Translations under genes and position numbers: made by a program
Notes under the pieces: generated by a model
Databases searched by the model: none
What the model saw: the letters and a program-made list of their open reading frames with translations, nothing else
What the model was told of the DNA's origin: nothing
Source: an uncultured bacterium
GTDB taxonomy: Bacteria > Krumholzibacteriota > Krumholzibacteriia > LZORAL124-64-63
DNA length: 34,943 nt
Reading direction: 5' to 3'
NCBI GenBank assembly: GCA_903859215.1
Contig: CAIOLW010000087.1
Location: 1-34,943, forward strand
Part shown: one piece after another, positions 1,613 to 33,707 of the stretch
How the letters are laid out: each line of letters starts with the position of its first letter
How positions within the stretch are numbered: position 1 is the first letter of the stretch

Positions 1613-1821
1613 GCAATCCGCCTGCCCGACTTCCAGAGCACCACCATCGACTCGTTCGACAGCGGCCGGCGCGCCCCGGGGAACCCGCGAACCCATTTGA
1701 CGGCCCCGGCCCGGGCCCCGAAACTGACCGCAGCCACCCCGGCGCCTCGTTCGATCGGCGACCGCAGGTAAACGAACCCCTCCCGGCGTTCGTCTTGTGG
1801 TCCAGAACGAGGAGGATGCTC

Positions 1822-2451
1822 ATGGGCAAACTGGATCAGCAAGACCCGTCGGGCGCGTCACCACCCGAGCGCGCCCCCCAACAGGACCTGGAACTGGCCC
1901 GCGCCGCCGCCCTGGGCGACGAGGAGGCCTGGCGCCGCCTGTACGACGCCACCTGCCAGCCGCTGTTCAACTTCCTGGTCTACCAGACCGGCGACCGCGA
2001 GGCTGCGCGCGATCTCGTGCAGGAGACGTACGTGACGGCGCTCGGGCGCCTGGACACGTACCGCGGGCAGGGCACGCTGCTCAGCTGGCTGCGGTCGGTC
2101 GGCCTGCGCAAGAGCCTGGACTGGCGACGGCGCGTGAAGCTCGGCGTCCGCAAGGTCGCCGCGCTGGCCCTCGAGCGCACAGCCCTCACGTCTTCCGGTT
2201 CCGAAGCCGCGTTCCCCGGCCTGGGGGACGGCTTCCAGGCGGCGCTGAACCGCCTGTCGCCGCACCAGCGCGCCGCGCTGCTGCTGCGTGAACTGGAGGA
2301 CGCTTCCTTCGCCGAGATCGCCGCGGTCCTGGACTGCGGCGAACCCACCGCGAGGGTTCATCACCACCGGGCCTGCCGGAAGCTGCGCCTTTGGCTGCGC
2401 GACGGCGACGACCTGGTGTTCAGCGAGCTGCCGGGAGGGGAACAGTCATGA
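1822..2451 (+). CDS. ECF-type RNA polymerase sigma factor
   Basis: A 209-aa sigma-70 family protein of the extracytoplasmic-function size class. Region 2 spans roughly residues 30-100, with the motif DLVQETYVTALGRLDTYRGQ followed by LLSWLRSV, the promoter-melting and core-binding part. Region 4 is at about 140-190, with LSPHQRAALLLREL and a helix-turn-helix FAEIAAVLDC...ARVHHHRACRKLR that would read the -35 element. The ATG at 1822 sits six bases after GGAGG; an in-frame ATG at 1816 lies inside the ribosome-binding site and a TTG at 1795 is less likely. The stop overlaps the ATG of the next gene (ATGA), so sigma factor and vWA protein are translationally coupled. This arrangement commonly places a sigma factor with its membrane regulator. 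The target promoters are unknown. Confidence 0.9.
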   Translation: MGKLDQQDPSGASPPERAPQQDLELARAAALGDEEAWRRLYDATCQPLFNFLVYQTGDREAARDLVQETYVTALGRLDTYRGQGTLLSWLRSVGLRKSLDWRRRVKLGVRKVAALALERTALTSSGSEAAFPGLGDGFQAALNRLSPHQRAALLLRELEDASFAEIAAVLDCGEPTARVHHHRACRKLRLWLRDGDDLVFSELPGGEQS

Positions 2452-4616
2452 AGCGCTACCTGAAGAACGATCGCTACCGGATGACGGAACACGAGGCCGG
2501 CAATGTGTGGTACGCGGTGCGCCGCGAGTTGAACGGGTCCGGGGGCGGCGCCGCGGGTCGCCGCGGCATGCGCGCGTGGCGGCCGGCCATGGCGACGGTC
2601 GCCGTCCTGGCCGTGGCCGTGGTTTCGGTGGTCTGGTGGCAGGACGGCCGCGCCCCCATGCCCACGCAGCCGGGCCGGTCATCGATCCCCTACGAGTCGA
2701 TCGGCGTCCCGCCGGCGCCGCCGGCCGTGGCGAAGACCGAACGGCGCGGCGCGCCCGCGCAGAAGGAGACGCCGCCGGAGGTGGCGGCAGCTCCCCGGGG
2801 CGAGCGGCAGGCGGAACGGCCCGCGACCCCGCAGCCCCCCACTGCCAAGCCCGCCGCCGCGGAGCCGGCGAAGGGCAAGGACGCGGAGTCGACCGTCGTG
2901 GCGACCCTCGAGCCGCTCGAGGTCACGTCCGAGGAGTACATGGTCGACACCAGGAGCATGCCGGCCGGCGCGGGTGACCTGGCGGGCGCCAACCAGGGCG
3001 TGGTCACCCGGACGTTCGACAAGTACGCCGTCGATTCGGTCAACGACGCCCTCGCGAAGCAGTCGGCCGAACGGCAGTCCCTCGTCGGCTACCCGGCCGG
3101 CGGCGTGCGCGGCGGCGCCGAACAGACGGCGCCCGGGTTCGCTCCCGGCTCGGTCACCGGCGGGTCCACGCCCCCCAACGGGGAGAAGTACGAACTGATG
3201 TACTTCGAGCACGCCGGCGTGAATCCGTTCATCGCCACCGAGGATGACGCGCTGTCGACCTTCGCGCTGGACGTGGACAACGCCTCGTTCTCGCTGGCCC
3301 GCAGCTACCTCGACCGCGGCGAACTGCCGCCCGCAGCCGCCATCCGCGTCGAGGAGTTCGTCAACGCCATCGATGCGGGCTGGGAGAGCGTGCGGAACGA
3401 GACCTTCCGCATCGGCCTGGACGGCGGACCGTCGCGCTTCGGCGAGGGCTACCAGCTGCTGCGCGTGGGCATCGTCGGGCGCAGCGTGGATGATGCGCAT
3501 CGCAAGGCCGCCAACCTGGTGTTCGTGATCGACACGTCCGGCTCGATGGGGCGCGAGAATCGCCTGGAGTCGGTCAAGCGGGCGCTGCGCACGCTGGTCG
3601 ACGAGCTGGGCGAGGGCGACCGCGTGGGCATCGTCACCTACGGCTCGCAGGCCGAGGTGCGGTTGCCGCTGACGGATGTCTCGCGGCGCGGCGAGATCCT
3701 CGGCATCATCGACGGGCTGGCCACCGACGGCAGCACCAACGTGGCCGATGGCCTGAAGCTGGGCTACGGGGTGGCGCGTCGCGGTTTCGACGCCGGGCTC
3801 ATCAACCGGCTGGTCCTGTGCTCGGACGGCGTGGCCAACACCGGCCAGGCCACCGACGCCGGGGGCATCCTGGACCTGGCGCGCCGCGGGTCCGACGACG
3901 GCATCACCCTGTCGGCCGTCGGCTTCGGCATGGGCAACTACAACGACGTGCTGATGGAGCAGCTGGCCGACCAGGGCGACGGCAACTACTTCTACGTGGA
4001 CGGCCCGCGCGAGGCCGAGCGGGTGTTCCACGAGAACCTGACCGGCATGTTGCAGACCATCGCCCGCCAGGCCAAGGTGCAGGTCGAGTTCGACCCGAAG
4101 CGCGTGTCGCGCTGGCGCCTGCTGGGCTACGAGAACCGCGACGTGGCCGACCGCGACTTCCGCAACGACGCCGTCGATGCGGGCGAAGTGGGCGCCGGGA
4201 ACCAGGTCACCGCGCTGTACGAGGTGAAGCTGGCGGAGCCCGAGAGCGACCGCGGGGCGCTCGAGGGACGGCTCGGTGCGGTGCATCTGCGGTGGGAAGC
4301 GCCCGAGCACGACACCGCGCATGCCGGCAAGGTGACCGAGATCGAGCGCCCGATCGATGCCTCGCTGTTCGCGGCGCGGGACGGCGGCGGTTCGGCCCAT
4401 CGCCGCGCGCAGGTGCTGGCGGCCGAGTTCGCCGAGATCCTGCGCGGCAGCTACTGGGCGAAGGAGAGCCGCGTCTCGTCGCTGGTGCCGCTGGCCGACG
4501 GACTGGCGGCCGAACTGCCCCGCGAGCAGGCGGTGCAGGACCTGGCGCGGATGATCCGGCGGGCGGCCGACCTGGCGGACGGGCGCGGGCGGGTCGAGCC
4601 GATGGAAGACAAGTAG
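2448..4616 (+). CDS. YfbK-type membrane-anchored von Willebrand factor A protein, possible anti-sigma regulator
   Basis: A 722-aa protein whose ATG overlaps the sigma-factor stop, behind GGGAGGGG. Residues 1-45 are cytoplasmic-looking, with a TEHEAGNVWYAVRREL segment of the kind that precedes the membrane helix in many anti-sigma factors. One membrane helix follows at about 46-64, then a long Pro/Ala-rich linker. Residues about 154-205 (VTSEEYMVDTRS, then FDKYAVDSVNDALAKQSA) resemble a TonB-receptor plug segment. The C-terminal two thirds match the YfbK family: an N-terminal vWF_A region (about 250-310), a vWA domain with an intact metal-binding motif DTSGSM at 362-367, and a C-terminal DUF3520-like region (about 545-715). 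Adhesion or sensing at the cell surface with control of the sigma factor is inference; the family has no firm biochemical role. Confidence 0.88.
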   Translation: MKRYLKNDRYRMTEHEAGNVWYAVRRELNGSGGGAAGRRGMRAWRPAMATVAVLAVAVVSVVWWQDGRAPMPTQPGRSSIPYESIGVPPAPPAVAKTERRGAPAQKETPPEVAAAPRGERQAERPATPQPPTAKPAAAEPAKGKDAESTVVATLEPLEVTSEEYMVDTRSMPAGAGDLAGANQGVVTRTFDKYAVDSVNDALAKQSAERQSLVGYPAGGVRGGAEQTAPGFAPGSVTGGSTPPNGEKYELMYFEHAGVNPFIATEDDALSTFALDVDNASFSLARSYLDRGELPPAAAIRVEEFVNAIDAGWESVRNETFRIGLDGGPSRFGEGYQLLRVGIVGRSVDDAHRKAANLVFVIDTSGSMGRENRLESVKRALRTLVDELGEGDRVGIVTYGSQAEVRLPLTDVSRRGEILGIIDGLATDGSTNVADGLKLGYGVARRGFDAGLINRLVLCSDGVANTGQATDAGGILDLARRGSDDGITLSAVGFGMGNYNDVLMEQLADQGDGNYFYVDGPREAERVFHENLTGMLQTIARQAKVQVEFDPKRVSRWRLLGYENRDVADRDFRNDAVDAGEVGAGNQVTALYEVKLAEPESDRGALEGRLGAVHLRWEAPEHDTAHAGKVTEIERPIDASLFAARDGGGSAHRRAQVLAAEFAEILRGSYWAKESRVSSLVPLADGLAAELPREQAVQDLARMIRRAADLADGRGRVEPMEDK

Positions 4617-5223: not shown

Positions 5224-7233
5224 CTAGATGTCGATCATGTCCCGGCCGGAGCCGACCAGCTCAAGCTCGTCCTCGTCGAAGGCGATCACATGATCGACCT
5301 TCTTCGAGCGGGCCGGAGCCGGCTTGCGCGCGGGAGCCTGCGCCTGGGCCTTGGGGGCCTTCGGAGCGGAGGCAGCCTTGCGCATCGGCATGGCCGGCAT
5401 CTTCGCCTGCGGGCCGTAGCCGGTGTTCTCGCCACCGACCATCGACTCGAGCTCGCGAACCATCGAGGACAGCTCCTCGGCCTGGCCCGACAGCTCCTCG
5501 CTGGCCGACGCGGTCTCTTCCGCGTTGGCAGCGTTGGCCTGCGTGATGTGGTCCATCTGGCCCACGGCCGTGTTGATCTGGGCATTGCCCTCGGCCTGCT
5601 CGTTGCTGGCCTTGGCGATGCCGGCCACCAGCTCGTTGACCTCGGCGGCCGCCGAACTGATCTCCGCCAGCGCCGCGCCCACTTCGCGGGTGATGGCCAC
5701 GCCGTTGTCGGCGTTCTTGACCGACTCCTCGATCATCTGGGCCGTGTTCTTCGCAGCCTCGGCCGAACGCTGCGCCAGGTTGCGCACTTCCTCGGCCACG
5801 ACCGCGAAGCCCTTGCCCGCCTCGCCGGCGCGCGCCGCTTCGACAGCCGCGTTGAGGGCCAGCAGGTTGGTCTGGAAGGCGATCTCGTCGATCGTCTTGA
5901 TGATGCGCGCGGTCGAATCGCTCGACTTCTTGATGTCGTCGATGGCGGTGTTCATGCGCTGCATCGCGTCCACGCCGCGGTCGGCGCTGGACTTCGTCTG
6001 CGACGCCAGGGCATTGGCCTTGATGGCGTTCGCCGCGTTCTGGCGGGTCATCGCGGCCATCTCTTCCATGGAGGAGGAGGTTTCCTCGATGGCTGCCGCC
6101 TGGCGGCTGGCGCCGTCCGCGAGCGAGACGCTGGCCGACGACACCTGGCCGGCGGCGCTGGACGTCTGCTGCGAACCGGCGGTCAGGCCGCCGATGATCC
6201 GACGCAGCGGGCCGACGATCGAACGGGTGATCATCAGGGCTGCGAACACGCCGATCGCGATGCAGATCACCAGGCCGACCAGCAGGGTCAGCGACGAGGC
6301 GGTCAGGCTCGCCGAAGCCTCGTCGGCGATCTTGCGAGCGCCTTCGACGCCGGCCGCGGCGGTTTCCTGGGCCTGAGCCACGACGGCGTTGCCGACTTCG
6401 CCACGCTTGACGCCGACCGCCTGCAGGGCTTCCCAGTCCGTCAGGAATTCCTTCATCGCGGTGCGGTAGTCGTTGCCCGCCTTCTCGGTCGCCGCGATCT
6501 GCTCGATGTTGGCCGGATCGGCCGTGATCGCGCGCATTTCGTTGAACTTCGCGGCCATGGGATCGAACTTGGCGTCGGCGTCGATCATCAACTGGGGCTC
6601 ACGCAGGGCCTGGGCCTTCCAGTTGGCGATGCGGACCGAGTTGCCGAGGTCGATCACGTCGTTGACCAGCGTGATCTTCTTCATGCGCTCGCGCAGCTTG
6701 GCGCCCTTGAGGCCGGCCGCGATGTCCTTGTCCATCTTGTCGTTCTGGTTCGCCAGGTAGGCATTGCAGTTGTCCATGAACGCAGCCGCCGACGTGTTCA
6801 GCGTCGTGCGGTTGTCGCCCAACTGGCCGATGAGGTCCTTGGTCTGCTTCAGCAGGCCTTCGTACTCGGTGACCGACGCCTGGGCCGCCTGCACGGCGGG
6901 CCCCAGCTTGACCAGGTGCTTGGCCTCAGTGGCCAGCTTGGCGCAGTCGTCCAGAGACTTGTTGACGTCGGCCAAGTTCTTGGTGCCCTCGTCGTAGTAC
7001 TTCGGGTCCTCGCTCAGGCCGTAACTGCGGACCGCGAGCATCGTCACGTGCGACGCGCGCTCGACGTCCGTGCACAACTGCACTTCCGGCATGTATTCGG
7101 TAGCCAGGATGTTGGAGTTCTTCCGGACCATGTTCATGCTCACGACGCCCAGCGCGCCGAGGACGGACGCCAGACAGATCACCATCGCGAAGCCGAGGCT
7201 GATCTTAGCGCCGAGCTTCATGTTCTTCAGCAT
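5224..7233 (-). CDS. Methyl-accepting chemotaxis protein
   Basis: A 669-aa transmembrane chemoreceptor. The first membrane helix is at about residues 10-32. A mostly helical periplasmic sensor follows (about 33-310), probably of the 4HB/HBM class. The second helix is at about 311-335, then a HAMP-like stretch beginning [15 protein letters not shown]. The signalling domain has the [11 protein letters not shown] methylation region and the highly conserved hairpin tip ([19 protein letters not shown], then [15 protein letters not shown]) near 448-485, which binds CheW and CheA. The C-terminus is a Pro/Ala/Lys linker ending in an acidic tail without an NWETF-type CheR tether. The ATG at 7233 follows GGGAG. 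CheW is encoded 49 bases upstream, so the two are co-transcribed. The ligand cannot be predicted. Confidence 0.95.
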
Positions 7234-12883: not shown

Positions 12884-12919
12884 ACTCAAGGTGTCGGCAG
12901 ATGCGGCCGAACATTGAGT
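12884..12919. promoter_or_regulatory. Composite inverted repeat in a divergent kinase/regulator promoter region
   Basis: ACTCAA (12884-12889) and TTGAGT (12914-12919) form an outer inverted repeat. TCGGC (12894-12898) and GCCGA (12906-12910) form an inner one, and the two are nearly symmetric about the same centre. It lies between two divergent genes that both start with TTG, so it could bind a regulator of both. No clear core promoter was found around it. Confidence 0.4.
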
Positions 12920-12966
12920 GTAGCCCGTATTCGCAGGCCGCCGCAGGCGCCGCCCGGGAGGCGTGT

Positions 12967-14178
12967 TTGAGGACGAAAGCCGTACTGCCGCGCGTGTTGT
13001 GCGTGGACGACGAAATACGCGTCCTCAATGCCATCGAGCGCACCCTGCGGGACAAGCTCGACCTGACGATGGCGTCGAGCGCCGCGCAGGCGCTGGCGAC
13101 CCTCCGCGAAACCAGGGAGCCCTTCCAGGTCATCGTCTCGGACATGCGCATGCCCGAGATGAACGGGATCAACCTCCTGATGCACGTGCGGCGCGAATTC
13201 CCGGACGTCGTCCGGGTCCTCCTGACGGGATACGCCGACCTCGACGTCGTGGTGCGGGCCGTGAACGACGGCAACATCTTCCGTTTCCTGGCCAAGCCGT
13301 GCTCGATGGCCGACCTGCTCGATGCGGTGCGCGCCGCCGTCCGCCAGAACAACCTGATCTGCGCCGAGCGCGTCCTGCTCGAGCAGACGGTCAAGGGCAG
13401 CATCGACGCCATGAGCGGGATCCTTGCCCTGGCCAGCCCGACCCTGTTCGGCCGCGGTTCGCGCGTGAAGAACCTGGCGGAGCTGATGTGCGCCGAGGCG
13501 GGCATCGCGTTCGACTGGCAGCTGCAGGTTTCGGCGCTCCTTTCGCAGATCGGACGCATCACGCTGCCGGACACCATCGCCGCCAAGCTGGCGACGGGCG
13601 AGCCGCTCACCGATCAGGAGGCGGCGATGGTGCAGCGCGTGCCCGAGGTCACGTACAACATCATCTGCAGCATCCCGCGCCTGGACGAGGTCCTCATGGC
13701 CATCCAGTTCATGGACAAGAACTTCGACGGGACGGGCTCGCCGCGCGGGAAGATCTCGGGGGAGGACATTCCCGTCGCGGCGCGCGTCCTGAAGCTCGCG
13801 AACCGCATCGAGGAATTGCAGGGCCGCGGCTACTCCGCCCGGCGCGTGCTGGACTCGCTGCGCGTCGAGGTCGGCGCCTACGATCCCCGGCTCCTGAAGG
13901 CGTACGAAGCCGTCGCCGACATGGCGGAGGAACGCGCGGGTCCCCGCGGGCTGCTCATGCACGAATTGCGGATCGGCATGGTGATGGTGGAGCCGGTGTG
14001 GTCGCGGGCGGGCGTCATGCTGGTGGCGGCGGGGCAGGAGGTCACCGAGGGCCTTCTCGGCCGTATCCAGAACTATCACGACACGGTCGGCATCGCGGTG
14101 CCGCTGTGGATCCGGCCCGCCGCCGTGGCCGACGAACCGAGGCCCCGATTCGTGCTAGAAGACCAGCTCACCCACTGA
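12967..14178 (+). CDS. Receiver domain fused to a degenerate HD-GYP-like domain
   Basis: A 403-aa regulator. Residues 1-125 are a canonical receiver: RVLCVDDE, phospho-acceptor Asp59 in VSDMRMPEMNG, Thr in LLTGYAD and Lys in LAKPC. Residues about 165-300 follow the HD-GYP fold but lack its metal-binding residues. The usual HDIGK is replaced by LSQIGRITLPD, and the usual HHExxDGxGYP by FMDKNFDGTGSP. Cyclic-di-GMP hydrolysis is therefore unlikely and a binding or scaffolding role more plausible. A small C-terminal domain (LLMHELRIGMVMVEPV...) follows. The TTG at 12967 has GGGAGG five bases upstream and gives the normal receiver N-terminus; the frame is open to an ATG at 12901 that lacks a ribosome-binding site. 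It is divergent from the PAS kinase and overlaps the HDOD gene by 24 bases at their 3' ends. Confidence 0.9.
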   Translation: MRTKAVLPRVLCVDDEIRVLNAIERTLRDKLDLTMASSAAQALATLRETREPFQVIVSDMRMPEMNGINLLMHVRREFPDVVRVLLTGYADLDVVVRAVNDGNIFRFLAKPCSMADLLDAVRAAVRQNNLICAERVLLEQTVKGSIDAMSGILALASPTLFGRGSRVKNLAELMCAEAGIAFDWQLQVSALLSQIGRITLPDTIAAKLATGEPLTDQEAAMVQRVPEVTYNIICSIPRLDEVLMAIQFMDKNFDGTGSPRGKISGEDIPVAARVLKLANRIEELQGRGYSARRVLDSLRVEVGAYDPRLLKAYEAVADMAEERAGPRGLLMHELRIGMVMVEPVWSRAGVMLVAAGQEVTEGLLGRIQNYHDTVGIAVPLWIRPAAVADEPRPRFVLEDQLTH

Positions 14179-24955: not shown

Positions 24956-27595
24956 GTGTTGCAGCCCCTTCACAAGTCGCGTGCGCTGGCGTTGCTGCTG
25001 GGCAGCCTGCTGCTGCTTGCCGCATTGCCCCTGCAGGCCGGCACCACCGGTACGCTGGCCGGCCGCGTGATCGACGCGGGCGGGAAACCCGTCGTCGCCG
25101 CCACCGTCCTGGTGACGGGAACGCGCCTGGGCGCGTATACCGATGCCGAGGGCAAGTTCCTGATCCTGAACGTGGCTCCCGGCACGTACGTGGTGAAGGC
25201 CAGTCGGCTCGGTTTCAATGCCGTGACCATGAGCGAGGTCGTCGTGTCGGCCGACAACACGATGCGCCTGGACTTCAAGATGGGCGACACCAACCTCAAG
25301 ACCGAGGAAGTGGTGATCGTCGCCGAGCGGCCGCCCGTGGACCTGAAGGTCACCAGTTCGCAGGCCACCATGACGACGCAGGAGATCGAAGAGCTGCCGG
25401 TCCAGAGCCTGGACGATGTCGTGAACCTGCAGGCGGGCGTGGTCGACGGCCACTTCCGCGGCGGCCGCAGCGGCGAGGTGCAGTACCAGGTCGACGGCGT
25501 CAGCATCAACAACGCTTTCGACAACAAATCGAGCCTGAATGTCGACCGTTCGCTGCTGCAGGAAGTGCAGGTCATCAGCGGCACGTTCGACGCCGAGTAC
25601 GGCCAGGCCATGTCGGGTGTGGTCAACGCCGTGCTGAAGCAGGGCGGCGAGGAATACAAGACCGAGGGCGAGATCTACCTGGGCGGCTTCCGGTTTTCGG
25701 ATGGCGGGAACCGGCGCAGGGTCGATGCCACGAGCCACCTGGCCGGGACGAACAACTTCCAGGCGACGCTGAGCGGCCCGCTGCCGTCGGACAAGACGAA
25801 CTTCCTGGTCAGCGGCCGCTACTACCATTGGGAGGACTACGTCCGGGGCCTGCGGGTCTACAATCCGTCGGACGGTTTCCCGGGCCACCCCGACACCCCG
25901 TTCATCGCGAGCGGCGACCGCGCGCAGATGCCCCTCGGCTACACGGACGAATGGTCCGGCGTGGCCAAGCTGACCAGCAATGCCCTGGCCAACACGAAAA
26001 TCAGCTACCAGATGCTGGTGAACCGTCGTGAGAGCCGGCCGACCATCTGGCAGTTCCGCTACCTGCCTGACGCGGTGTCCATCCAGCGCACGCTGTCGGT
26101 CGCCCAGGGATTCGACGTGACCCACACGCTGGGGCCCTCGACGTTCCTCGACTTCAGTGCGCGGCGGAATTCGTTCGATTACACCGATCATCTCTACGCT
26201 GATCCGTTCGACCCCCGCTACGACAGCGTGCTGCAGCTTCGTTCCGATGTGAACGGTGGCTTCGCCTACCAGGGCGTCCAGACGAACAACTACATCCAGA
26301 AGACGGTTTCCTACATCCTGAAGGGCGCGCTCGTCAGCCAGCTCGACAGCCAGAACCAGGCCAAGACGGGATTCGAGCTGAGCCTGCCCACGGTCGAGTT
26401 CGGAACGCCCATGCACCTGGTCTACGTCAACAGCGCGCTGCTGCGGAAGGTGAACGAGGAGGGCTATCCCGGGCCGATGAAGCGGTACCCGGTCATGGGA
26501 GCCTTCTATGCCCAGGATCAGCTGGACAAGGGTGACCTGATCGTGCGCTACGGCGGCCGCCTGGACTACTTCGACGCCCGCTCGACCATTCCCGGCGATC
26601 TTGCCAACCCGGCCAATGCCATTTCCGGCGTGCCGACGGCCGACCCGGTGGCAACGACGGTGAAGGCGACGTTCTCGCCGCGCGTGGGTGTGGCTTATCC
26701 GATCGAGGACAAGGCCGCGATCCATTTCGCCTACGGGCACTTTCGCCAGTTCCCCTCGGTCAGCACGATGTTCTCCAATTCGGACTACTCGGTCCTGGCG
26801 AACCTCCAGGCAGGCGCGGCGGACTACGGCGTGTTGGGCAATCCGGACGTGAAGCCGGAATCGACGGTGCAGTACGAGGTCGGCTACAAGCAGGTCGTCA
26901 ACCCGGACTTCGGCTTCGACCTGACGGTCTACTACAAGGACATCCGCGACCTGCTGGGCGTGGAATTCATCGACACCTATACCGGGGCCACCTATTCCCG
27001 GTTGACCAATGTCGACCACGGCAGCGCGCTGGGCCTCACGCTGGCGCTGGATCACCGGCAGGTCGGTCCATTGTCCATGTCGCTGGACTACACCTGGCAG
27101 CAGGCGATGGGCAATGCGAGCGACCCGAGCGAGACGGCGACGCGCGCGGCGGCCGGCGAGGACCCGCGGCCACGGTTGGTGCCGTTCAACTGGGACCAGC
27201 GTCACACGGTCAACCTGACGGCCGCCCTGAACACGCCCGGTGCCTGGACGTTCGCGGCAGTGGCCAAGGTGGCCAGCGGACAGCCGTACACGCCCGAGAC
27301 CGAAGAGGCCTTCGGCTTCGGCGCCGCCACCAATTCGGGCCGCAAGCCGGCCGGCCTGCTGGTCGACGTGCGCGCGGAGAAGAAGTTCGGCAAGAACGAG
27401 GCGGGCAGTGTGTTCCTGCGCGTGTTCAACCTTTTCGACACGCGGTATTTCAATGGAGCGGTATTCCCGACCACGGGCAGCCCCTACTACAGCATTCCCA
27501 GCCCGAACGCACAGTTGGCGCTAGCCGATCCCACGCGCCTTTACCCGCCGCGCCGCCTGGAAATGGGCATGCGCCTGACCTGGGGGGGCAAGTGA
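24956..27595 (+). CDS. TonB-dependent outer-membrane receptor
   Basis: An 879-aa outer-membrane receptor for energy-dependent import. A signal peptide ends near residue 28. A CarboxypepD_reg-like domain spans about 30-110 (GTLAGRVIDAGGKPVVAATV, GKFLILNVAPGTYVVKASRLG), as in SusC-like proteins. A TonB-box-like stretch (EEVVIVAERPP) precedes the plug (about 125-235; IEELPVQSLDDVVNLQAGVV, YQVDGVSINNAF, SGVVNAVLKQGG). The remaining residues form the barrel (YGGRLDYFD, PRVGVAYPI, YEVGYKQVVN, FDTRYFNGA) and end RLTWGGK. The GTG at 24956 has GGAGG ten bases upstream. There is no SusD gene next to it; instead a large secreted protein and a PorV-like protein follow. The substrate is inferred to be the oligosaccharide made by the GH144 enzyme. 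Confidence 0.93.
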   Translation: MLQPLHKSRALALLLGSLLLLAALPLQAGTTGTLAGRVIDAGGKPVVAATVLVTGTRLGAYTDAEGKFLILNVAPGTYVVKASRLGFNAVTMSEVVVSADNTMRLDFKMGDTNLKTEEVVIVAERPPVDLKVTSSQATMTTQEIEELPVQSLDDVVNLQAGVVDGHFRGGRSGEVQYQVDGVSINNAFDNKSSLNVDRSLLQEVQVISGTFDAEYGQAMSGVVNAVLKQGGEEYKTEGEIYLGGFRFSDGGNRRRVDATSHLAGTNNFQATLSGPLPSDKTNFLVSGRYYHWEDYVRGLRVYNPSDGFPGHPDTPFIASGDRAQMPLGYTDEWSGVAKLTSNALANTKISYQMLVNRRESRPTIWQFRYLPDAVSIQRTLSVAQGFDVTHTLGPSTFLDFSARRNSFDYTDHLYADPFDPRYDSVLQLRSDVNGGFAYQGVQTNNYIQKTVSYILKGALVSQLDSQNQAKTGFELSLPTVEFGTPMHLVYVNSALLRKVNEEGYPGPMKRYPVMGAFYAQDQLDKGDLIVRYGGRLDYFDARSTIPGDLANPANAISGVPTADPVATTVKATFSPRVGVAYPIEDKAAIHFAYGHFRQFPSVSTMFSNSDYSVLANLQAGAADYGVLGNPDVKPESTVQYEVGYKQVVNPDFGFDLTVYYKDIRDLLGVEFIDTYTGATYSRLTNVDHGSALGLTLALDHRQVGPLSMSLDYTWQQAMGNASDPSETATRAAAGEDPRPRLVPFNWDQRHTVNLTAALNTPGAWTFAAVAKVASGQPYTPETEEAFGFGAATNSGRKPAGLLVDVRAEKKFGKNEAGSVFLRVFNLFDTRYFNGAVFPTTGSPYYSIPSPNAQLALADPTRLYPPRRLEMGMRLTWGGK

Positions 27596-32009: not shown

Positions 32010-33707
32010 ATGAAGACGGGGCGCGGGATCCGGGCCGGTTGGCGATCGCCGATGGCCGGGCTGTGTGTGGGCCTGCTTCTGGCCGTCAGCGGCGCTGCGG
32101 CAGCAACGGTCGCGACGGCTGCGACGGTTGCGACGGATGCGCCGCGCGGAACGCGTGACGATTACCCGGTCATGACGCTGGGCGGCAAGTCGCTCACCAA
32201 CGAGGCGCTCCTGGACAGCCTGCAGCGGCGCAGCTTCAAGTACTTCTGGTACGAGGCCAATCCCGTCAACGGGCTGATCCGCGACCGCAGCCAGGCCGGT
32301 TCCCCGTGCAGCATCGCCGCGCAGGGCTTCGGCATCTCCGCGATCTGCATCGCCATCGACCACGGTTGGGTCACGCGCGAAGAGGGTCGCGCGCGCATCA
32401 TGCTCGGCATGCAGACCCTGTGGAACGGGGCGCAGGGCAACACGGTCTACAACACGAACGGCTACAAGGGCCTGTTCTACCACTTCCTGGACATCAACTC
32501 GGGCAACCGGACCTGGACCTGCGAACTGTCCACCATCGACACCGCCCTCCTGATGGCCGGCGTGCTGGACGCCAAGCAGTACTTCAACACCACTGACGCC
32601 GGCGACGTCGCCGTCCGCGACCTGGCCGACTCCATGTACCGGCGTGTGGACTGGGACTTCATGCGGAACGGCGGCGCCGGCATCCGCATGGGCTGGAACC
32701 CGGAGACCGGATTCGCGACCTTCGGCAGCTGGGTCGGCTACAACGAGGCCATGATCCTGTACATCCTGGCCCTGGGCTCGCCGACGCACCCGGTGCCCGC
32801 GACCTGCTGGAACTACTGGACCACCGGCTACGGCTGGGCCACCTACTACGGCCAGAGCTACGTCGCCTTCGCGCCGCTGTTCGGCCATCAGTACTCGCAC
32901 TGCTGGATCGACTTCCGCGGCATCCCCGACACCTACATGACGGCGCGCGGGATCGACTATTTCGAGAACTCGCGGCGGGCGACATACGCGGCGCGCTCCT
33001 ACTGCATCCAGAACCCGTACGGGCGCGCCGCCTACGGCGCGAACCTGTGGGGCCTGACGGCGTCGGACGACCCGAACGGGTACGCGGCGCACGGCGCCCC
33101 GCCATCGCAGAGCGACAACGGCACCATCTCGCCGACGGCGGCGGCCAGCTCGATCGCCTTCGCGCCCGAGATCGTGCTGCCCTGCCTGCAGAACATGTAC
33201 GACACGTGGGGCGTCGGCCTGTGGGGCAAGTACGGCTTCAAGGACGCCTTCAACCCGACCGTGTACTGGTGGGGCCCGGACTGGCTGGGCATCGACCAGG
33301 GCCCGATCGTCATCATGATCGAGAACTACCTGAACGGCTCGGTCTGGCACCGGTACATGATGAACGCCGATATCGTCAACGGCCTGAAGCGCGCCGGCTT
33401 CCAGAACGTGACGCCGACCCCGGAACAGTCCTACAAACCGGTATCGATGATAGAGTTGCAGCAAAATGCCCCCAACCCGTTCCACGGCTCCACCACGATT
33501 TCGTTCCGTGTGCGCGAGTCGGGACCGGTGATCCTGAAGATGTACGATCTGCGCGGGCGGCAGGTGCGCCGTGTCGACGCCGAGGCGTCGGCCGACGACC
33601 TGCAGCAGATCACGCTGGATGGCGGGGGCCTGCCCAGCGGTGTTTATGCCTATTCACTGGAAATCCACGGCCACAGGGAGTGGAAACGTTGTATCATCGT
33701 GAAGTAG
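32010..33707 (+). CDS. Secreted GH144-type (glycoamylase-fold) endo-beta-1,2-glucanase candidate
   Basis: A 565-aa exported enzyme. The signal peptide spans about residues 1-35. The (alpha/alpha)6 catalytic domain (about 60-455, PF10091) has the family landmarks LQRRSFKYFWYEANPVNGL, GFGISAICIAIDHGWVTREE, GYNE with Glu246, ANLWGLTASDDPNGYAAHG, ISPTAAASSIAFAPE, and IDQGPIVIMIENY with Asp429. At the site where I recall VETAFL in characterised GH144 members, this protein has TIDTALL (Asp177), with Glu172 just before. The C-terminal domain (about 480-565) has QNAPNPFHGSTTISF, MYDLRGRQV and SGVYAYSL and ends CIIVK, a T9SS type A-like tag. GH144 enzymes cleave linear beta-1,2-glucan into short oligosaccharides. 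Related PF10091 proteins may act on other glucans, so the linkage is inferred, supported by the GH94 partner. Confidence 0.82.
   Translation: MKTGRGIRAGWRSPMAGLCVGLLLAVSGAAAATVATAATVATDAPRGTRDDYPVMTLGGKSLTNEALLDSLQRRSFKYFWYEANPVNGLIRDRSQAGSPCSIAAQGFGISAICIAIDHGWVTREEGRARIMLGMQTLWNGAQGNTVYNTNGYKGLFYHFLDINSGNRTWTCELSTIDTALLMAGVLDAKQYFNTTDAGDVAVRDLADSMYRRVDWDFMRNGGAGIRMGWNPETGFATFGSWVGYNEAMILYILALGSPTHPVPATCWNYWTTGYGWATYYGQSYVAFAPLFGHQYSHCWIDFRGIPDTYMTARGIDYFENSRRATYAARSYCIQNPYGRAAYGANLWGLTASDDPNGYAAHGAPPSQSDNGTISPTAAASSIAFAPEIVLPCLQNMYDTWGVGLWGKYGFKDAFNPTVYWWGPDWLGIDQGPIVIMIENYLNGSVWHRYMMNADIVNGLKRAGFQNVTPTPEQSYKPVSMIELQQNAPNPFHGSTTISFRVRESGPVILKMYDLRGRQVRRVDAEASADDLQQITLDGGGLPSGVYAYSLEIHGHREWKRCIIVK

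Follow-up and report, generated by a model that had tools for sequence, protein, structure and literature searches.

A YfbK-type vWA protein encoded next to an ECF sigma factor in a Krumholzibacteriota-like genome carries a half-plug that follows the TonB-dependent receptor of its own genome

The window analysed here is a 34,943-nucleotide stretch, contig C87 of a 4.33-Mb genome of an uncultured bacterium whose nearest named relatives are mostly Candidatus Krumholzibacteriota metagenome-assembled genomes. It contains a gene pair that encodes an extracytoplasmic function (ECF) sigma factor and a YfbK-type protein with a von Willebrand factor type A (vWA) domain. The vWA protein has a degenerate copy of the TonB box and the first half of the plug of T1, a TonB-dependent receptor of the same genome. 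New here are the observations that the half-plugs of the family resemble the T1 encoded in the same genome more than the T1 of other genera, that a cytosolic motif is linked to the presence of the sigma gene, and that the promoter motif ahead of the sigma gene is single-copy. The two genes may form an autoregulated sigma/anti-sigma operon whose sensor mimics the TonB-pulled half-plug of T1, a reading that we favor tentatively and consider possible, if short of probable.

When the vWA protein was searched against the whole genome, the only match besides the protein itself was that of residues 144–235 to T1, a 1027-aa open reading frame (ORF) on contig C46 (E-value = 4e-8, 40%). The aligned stretches are LEPLEVTSEEYMVD...GVVTRTFDKYAVDSVNDALAKQ in the vWA protein and LEDIDVTAEEYMVD...HTVSSETFEKYAIDSVEDAISKQ in T1. 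Pfam assigns CarboxypepD_reg, Plug and TonB-dependent barrel domains to T1 and finds no STN domain in it; a Pfam scan of the window vWA protein shows no beta-barrel. A hidden Markov model built from 36 T1 receptors detects the N-region of the window vWA protein with an E-value of 1.1e-11, and 24 of 25 vWA N-regions of the family with E < 0.01. The receptor-plug-like segment, which an earlier note made from the sequence alone had pointed out, has homology to the own-genome T1, at its TonB box and first plug half.

The module is fuller in many vWA proteins of the family, where a CarboxypepD_reg-like domain, a TonB box and the half-plug lie between the transmembrane (TM) helix and the vWA domain. 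In relatives the half-plug ends with ..VRGGRSGEVSMQIDGV and the linker GSVTGGTTPPNGE then follows. Pfam detects Plug in 8 of 77 N-regions of relatives (best E-value 5.6e-10) and CarbopepD_reg_2 in 36 of the 77, a set that does not include L054, L106 and L113. In the window protein the CarboxypepD_reg part is lost (Pfam finds no CarboxypepD_reg there) and so is most of the RGG hairpin. The AlphaFold2 (AF2) model of the window protein shows disorder at residues 66–165, a strand at 186–191, a helix at 198–209, and a well predicted vWA part. In a model of the relative L053, prediction is good for the CarboxypepD_reg domain, and most of the half-plug has a predicted local distance difference test score (pLDDT) below 50. 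A fold search with the L053 model gave nothing on the half-plug among the 50 matches listed; the matches are vWA proteins, i.e. ArnA/ArnB, 4fx5, the ITI heavy chain and BatB. No solved structure matches the first 457 aa of the T1 frame by sequence.

The copies in the vWA proteins presumably cover about the part of BtuB that is pulled by TonB, together with the next hairpin. PMC5413942 places the mechanically weak part of BtuB that TonB pulls out at residues 23–73, about 50 residues past the Ton box.

In its own genome T1 is followed by a 952-aa protein without a Pfam match and a PorV-like (UPF0164) protein. In G041, a Zixibacteria genome, a PorV relative likewise comes after the T1-like receptor. 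At these loci (L318:2669-9658 and L319) T1 and PorV may constitute a conserved receptor/PorV surface system.

The half-plugs were compared with T1 in 24 vWA/T1 pairs, drawn from 25 vWA proteins (V_G026 was dropped, as it has no long enough T1 partner). The half-plug has an identity of 0.592 with its own T1, compared with an average of 0.481 for the T1 of other genera. The genus-level statistic is 0.100, against a maximum of 0.061 in 5000 label permutations (p = 2e-4), and the same p is obtained under both N-region boundaries used. Control receptors are not tracked: p is 0.50 for T2 (20 pairs) and 0.53 for T3 (10 pairs). Nor is there tracking of T1 by the adjacent CarboxypepD_reg part in family pairs (p = 0.27, 15 pairs). 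Half-plugs of vWA proteins from different genera have a mutual likeness of 0.35, which is below their likeness to T1. That the half-plug follows its own receptor points to an outer-membrane partner. A second TonB-dependent receptor is encoded in the window itself (24956–27592, + strand); it has CarboxypepD_reg and Plug domains, and no covariation is seen between its half-plug and the vWA proteins (this is the T3 control).

A similar relationship is found outside the family. In Zixibacteria the half-plug shows an identity of 0.679 to the own receptor vs. 0.451 to others, the own receptor being best in 12 of 12 cases (p = 1e-4), and here the CarboxypepD_reg part also follows (0.598 vs. 0.443, own best in 11 of 12, p = 1e-4). 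In these p-values related genomes are not discounted, and L089 and two non-Zixibacteria genomes are left out. Both the TonB box and the RGG hairpin are retained in Zixibacteria, and among the neighbors of the vWA gene no sigma gene was detected there. In further sigma-coupled genomes, Eisenbacteria included, the own receptor is best in 6 of 8; receptors of these eight were gathered with one query (the L062 module), and the failures L066 and L077 may reflect missing loci.

The match between copy and own T1 is kept by gene conversion, selection, or both, and the pattern does not separate these causes. Own pairs display a higher excess of identical codons than other pairs (0.151 vs. 0.093, p = 3e-5, with the first alignment and earlier boundary), as do those of Zixibacteria (0.105 vs. 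0.029, p = 0.01). In G009 the DNA identity to the own T1 is 87% in the half-plug and 52% in the CarboxypepD_reg part. The codon excess together with the G009 contrast suggests conversion in some genomes. In Zixibacteria, own pairs have high to saturated proportions of synonymous differences (pS 0.55–0.84) and low proportions of nonsynonymous ones (pN 0.15–0.37), so that the likeness is more than recent copying. The ratio of nonsynonymous to synonymous divergence (dN/dS) to the own T1 is 0.11–0.16 in G004, G013, G014, G015 and G029; in G004 and G029 (0.11–0.14) the amino acids match T1 and the codons have diverged. It is near 1 in the half-plugs of G000, G007, G034, G036 and G037, and many copies carry deletions. 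Within the genus the TonB-box stretch (0.37) and the strand-helix stretch (0.48) are under more constraint than the linkers (0.72–0.92) and under less than the vWA domains (0.16–0.23). Positions 1822–4616 of the window, compared with L046, have a synonymous divergence of 0.06 (uncorrected) in the sigma gene, about 0.2 in the vWA domains and 0.5–0.7 in the linker and half-plug; this jump is a sign of recombination or of poor alignment there.

The coupling of the vWA gene to the sigma gene is strict. The sigma gene is directly upstream of the vWA gene in 28 of 80 named loci, and the start/stop overlap described in the earlier note is a 4-nt ATGA in the window, with 4 nt also in 27 of the 28 sigma-linked loci and 8 nt in one. 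The earlier note had asked for sigma/vWA pairs in relatives: in 38 genomes of the family both genes are present in 26 and neither in 10. The two discordant genomes have the sigma gene at a contig end (G006) or the vWA gene close to one (G032); G019 is counted as having both, its vWA gene being a fragment at a contig end. No separate anti-sigma gene is constant beside the pair, as the genes downstream vary among relatives and a CYTH gene adjoins only within the same genus.

The motif MK..L......LtdxEkexxWxxI is present in its general form at the N-terminus of all 28 sigma-linked vWA proteins (W in 27; three begin with MT). It was not found in the sigma-less vWA proteins of the 80 named loci, among which L054, L090 and L106, which begin at a contig or locus edge, are counted as sigma-less. 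The TM helix starts at a median residue of 40.5 in sigma-linked proteins vs. 5.5 in sigma-less ones (helix found in 44 of 52). The suggestion that the N-terminus fits a regulator is supported by a motif confined to sigma-linked proteins, the pattern expected of an anti-sigma factor. Residues 1–45 may hold the sigma factor at the membrane, as a short class II anti-sigma segment would.

A promoter-like motif, GTAAAC-N17-CGTC, precedes the sigma gene. Most of the sigma-linked loci whose upstream DNA is long enough have it, and a few Eisenbacteria have variants of it. The exact motif has one copy in the 4.33-Mb genome, ahead of the sigma gene. With one mismatch allowed there are 163 matches vs. 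128 for a control; counts this near to the control make the search uninformative. Across all 38 genomes of the family, the number of exact copies other than the sigma promoter is similar to that for a reversed-pattern control. No regulon target beyond the sigma/vWA operon, T1 included, was found in these motif searches. The conservation of the motif suggests that the sigma factor transcribes the sigma and vWA genes.

The following scheme may account for these properties. The two genes would form an autoregulated operon in which the membrane-anchored vWA protein restrains the ECF sigma factor, with the cytosolic residues 1–45 tethering it at the membrane. The periplasmic part would serve as a copy of the N-terminal module of the PorV-linked T1, i.e. 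TonB box and TonB-pulled half-plug, to which homology is found, and in relatives also the CarboxypepD_reg domain. As a mimic of the T1 plug, it could bind partners of T1 and hence report whether T1 is working or unplugged. Since the mimic consists of TonB box and half-plug, the natural partner would be TonB, or the T1 barrel left open by withdrawal of its own half-plug. Engagement or its loss, perhaps by way of the metal-dependent vWA domain and proteolysis, would free the sigma factor, which would then transcribe the sigma and vWA genes. For the binding to sigma, the binding to a partner and the release of sigma we rely on inference.

Several observations weigh against this reading. Pfam Plug does not reach the window vWA protein, as in a degenerate copy, and AF2 confidence is low at the window half-plug. 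Its dN/dS to the own T1 is about 1.04, which indicates decay. Constraint within the genus is just moderate at the TonB-box and strand-helix stretches, and it is not strong at the cytosolic segment (0.58). In 16 of the 24 pairs, not in all, the own T1 ranks first or ties for first, and the own-genus T1 ranks first in 7 of 11 genera (earlier N-region boundary). T1 or a close relative is present in 38 of 38 family genomes, including the 10 from which the sigma/vWA pair is missing. There is no exact promoter copy at T1, weak variants not being excluded. Zixibacteria vWA proteins keep the plug copy without a sigma gene; plug mimicry and sigma control are therefore separable. The persistence of the copy there also indicates a primary role that has to do with the receptor, the sigma factor having been gained by certain lineages (or lost by others).

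A broader form of the proposal is that in at least three lineages the vWA protein has a working half-plug replica which co-evolves with a core receptor and binds TonB or re-plugs the barrel, and that in two of them it is wired to an ECF sigma factor as a sensor of receptor opening. This appears somewhat unlikely. The vWA protein could instead be mainly an envelope effector and not an anti-sigma factor. The sigma factor would then drive its own operon, so that a cell under stress makes a membrane-anchored decoy, which would either compete for TonB or cap a T1 barrel that has been damaged; the role of the cytosolic segment would be confined to feedback. The sole exact promoter copy is that of the operon itself, so that the vWA protein is the main visible output, and the sigma-less Zixibacteria retain the same mimic with both RGG hairpin and TonB box. 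The strict tie of the cytosolic motif to the sigma gene speaks for an anti-sigma factor, however, and weaker promoter variants could serve other genes; we regard a mere effector as unlikely.

The plug-like module might also be a passive relic of an old receptor fusion, neutrally re-converted at times and otherwise decaying, with sigma control, if any, independent of it. The dN/dS near 1 in the window copy and several others, the deletions, and the conversion tracts suggested by the own-pair codon excess and by G009 agree with a relic. Low dN/dS in many other genomes does not, nor do the lineage-specific residues that Zixibacteria keep despite near-saturated synonymous sites, nor the recurrence of half-plug tracking in three groups, and a relic is in our view quite unlikely. 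A very improbable alternative takes the vWA protein for a force transducer as proposed in PMC12204202, with the half-plug as an outer-membrane hook and the sigma factor merely a co-transcribed regulator. The fold family, the TM helix and the Pro-rich linker are the same, and TonB-like TM helices containing His occur in several homologues from Poribacteria; the window TM helix, however, has no His or SHLS motif, and no tolQ/exbB-like gene is found among the window ORFs scanned, which are part of the ORFs.

Features of the locus are collected in Table 1. The sigma ORF displays Pfam sigma regions r2 (3.4e-9) and r4_2 (2.1e-14), both above curated cut-offs; it is a short protein with regions 2 and 4 only, as is typical of ECF sigma factors. 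In the vWA protein vWF_A (1.4e-17), VWA (5.5e-23) and YfbK_C (1.4e-29) occur in that order, all above curated cut-offs. DTSGSM occupies residues 362–367, and an alignment of 34 sequences shows no variation at D362, S364, S366, T430 or D460. This set is what we take to be a complete metal-ion-dependent adhesion site (MIDAS). The description in the earlier note of a YfbK-type protein with a metal-binding DTSGSM domain and a single membrane helix agrees with these domains and with one predicted TM helix at residues 47–65.

Table 1. Features of the sigma/vWA locus, with positions in the window.
Feature	Position	Strand	Basis
ECF-type promoter GTAAAC-N17-CGTC of sigma gene (predicted)	1768–1794	+	motif upstream of sigma in most sigma-linked loci
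ECF sigma factor, 209 aa	1822–2451	+	Sigma70_r2 and r4_2 above cut-off; orthologue adjoins vWA gene across family
ATGA start/stop overlap of sigma and vWA genes	2448–2451	+	4 nt; sigma TGA at 2449–2451
YfbK-type vWA protein, 722 aa	2448–4616	+	open ORF; three Pfam domains
Cytosolic segment, residues 1–45, candidate sigma-binding (class II-like anti-sigma)	2448–2582	+	conserved motif; predicted helix 14–29
TM helix, residues 46–66	2583–2645	+	AF2 helix 47–65; hydropathy scan of relatives
Disordered Pro/Ala/Lys-rich linker, residues 67–150	2646–2897	+	pLDDT <50; CarboxypepD_reg domain of relatives missing here
Degenerate half-plug, residues 151–223 (TonB box, strand 186–191, helix 198–209, GGVRGG)	2898–3116	+	T1 HMM; AF2 strand and helix
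TonB-box-like EPLEVTS, residues 155–161, then EEYMVD common to own T1	2910–2930	+	alignment with T1
vWF_A N-terminal domain (PF12450), residues 252–339	3201–3464	+	Pfam
VWA domain with DTSGSM, residues 356–524	3513–4019	+	Pfam; invariant residues
YfbK_C (PF12034), residues 534–706	4047–4565	+	Pfam

Near the locus the window also encodes a methyl-accepting chemotaxis protein (5227–7233, − strand) and an HD-domain (HD_5) response regulator (12901–14175, + strand). A putative glycoamylase (PF10091) at 32010–33704 (+ strand) carries a Por_Secre_tail (PF18962), the type IX secretion sorting tail; the genome is Krumholzibacteriota-like.

The locus shares with FecI-FecR-FecA and FoxI-FoxR-FoxA the pairing of an ECF sigma factor with a membrane protein that has, in its periplasmic part, homology to the N-terminal part of a TonB-dependent receptor. 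As a precedent, the anti-sigma factor FoxR binds the FoxA signaling domain through an STN-like domain, which is homologous to a domain of the receptor itself (PMC11637429). Unlike in FecIRA, Pfam finds neither FecR nor STN in the window vWA protein; the homology concerns CarboxypepD_reg, TonB box and half-plug, and a vWA domain is added. The receptor T1 has no STN either, is unlinked, and has no exact copy of the sigma promoter. With a degenerate window copy and no shared promoter, classical FecIRA signaling was rejected. The proposal of surface signaling in the earlier note stands in part: the strict sigma/vWA coupling, the sigma-only cytosolic motif and a plug homology that follows the own receptor favor it, and control in the style of FecA/FecI, with T1 on another contig and lacking the promoter, does not hold.

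The cytosolic segment recalls class II anti-sigma factors such as CnrY, which acts with CnrH: it is shorter than 50 aa, is followed by one TM helix and adjoins an ECF sigma gene. Its length fits this class as described in PMC7406223. The monomer model predicts one helix (14–29), where class II factors wrap sigma 2 and sigma 4 with two; the motif also differs, a difference noted without direct comparison to the CnrY sequence. Searches of the open-license PMC literature listed no paper on a vWA/plug fusion or a vWA anti-sigma factor, judged from titles and the beginnings of abstracts, and a search on Krumholzibacter listed just general sigma and TonB papers.

The vWF_A, VWA and YfbK_C domains place the protein in the YfbK family. 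Sigma-less members seen here start with a signal peptide, a lipoprotein-like or a TM segment. What sets the sigma-linked branch apart is its sigma gene, the cytosolic motif and the module derived from a receptor, a module that Zixibacteria members have too. The inner-membrane vWA force transducers (Mol Biol Evol 2025, PMC12204202) also have a YfbK-like vWA domain on a TM helix and a disordered linker. The window protein differs in being coupled to sigma and carrying a plug copy; a motor-linked transducer was rejected for want of His or SHLS in TM 46–66. The Poribacteria YfbK homologues L092, L096, L101, L104, L114, L116 and L119 have TonB-like TM helices with His (e.g. SVVCHFIVV) and Pro-rich linkers, and some of these homologues fit the force-transducer type better than the window protein. 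PMC12204202 says that the function of its membrane-tethered YfbK-like family is not yet known. YfbK-type vWA proteins are widespread and their job is unclear; the genome-by-genome match of the half-plug to one particular receptor points to a concrete candidate partner and hints at how the state of an outer-membrane gate, open or not, could be sensed. If true, this would extend cell-surface signaling beyond systems with STN domains, and the window system would work somewhat like both FecIRA and the vWA transducers.

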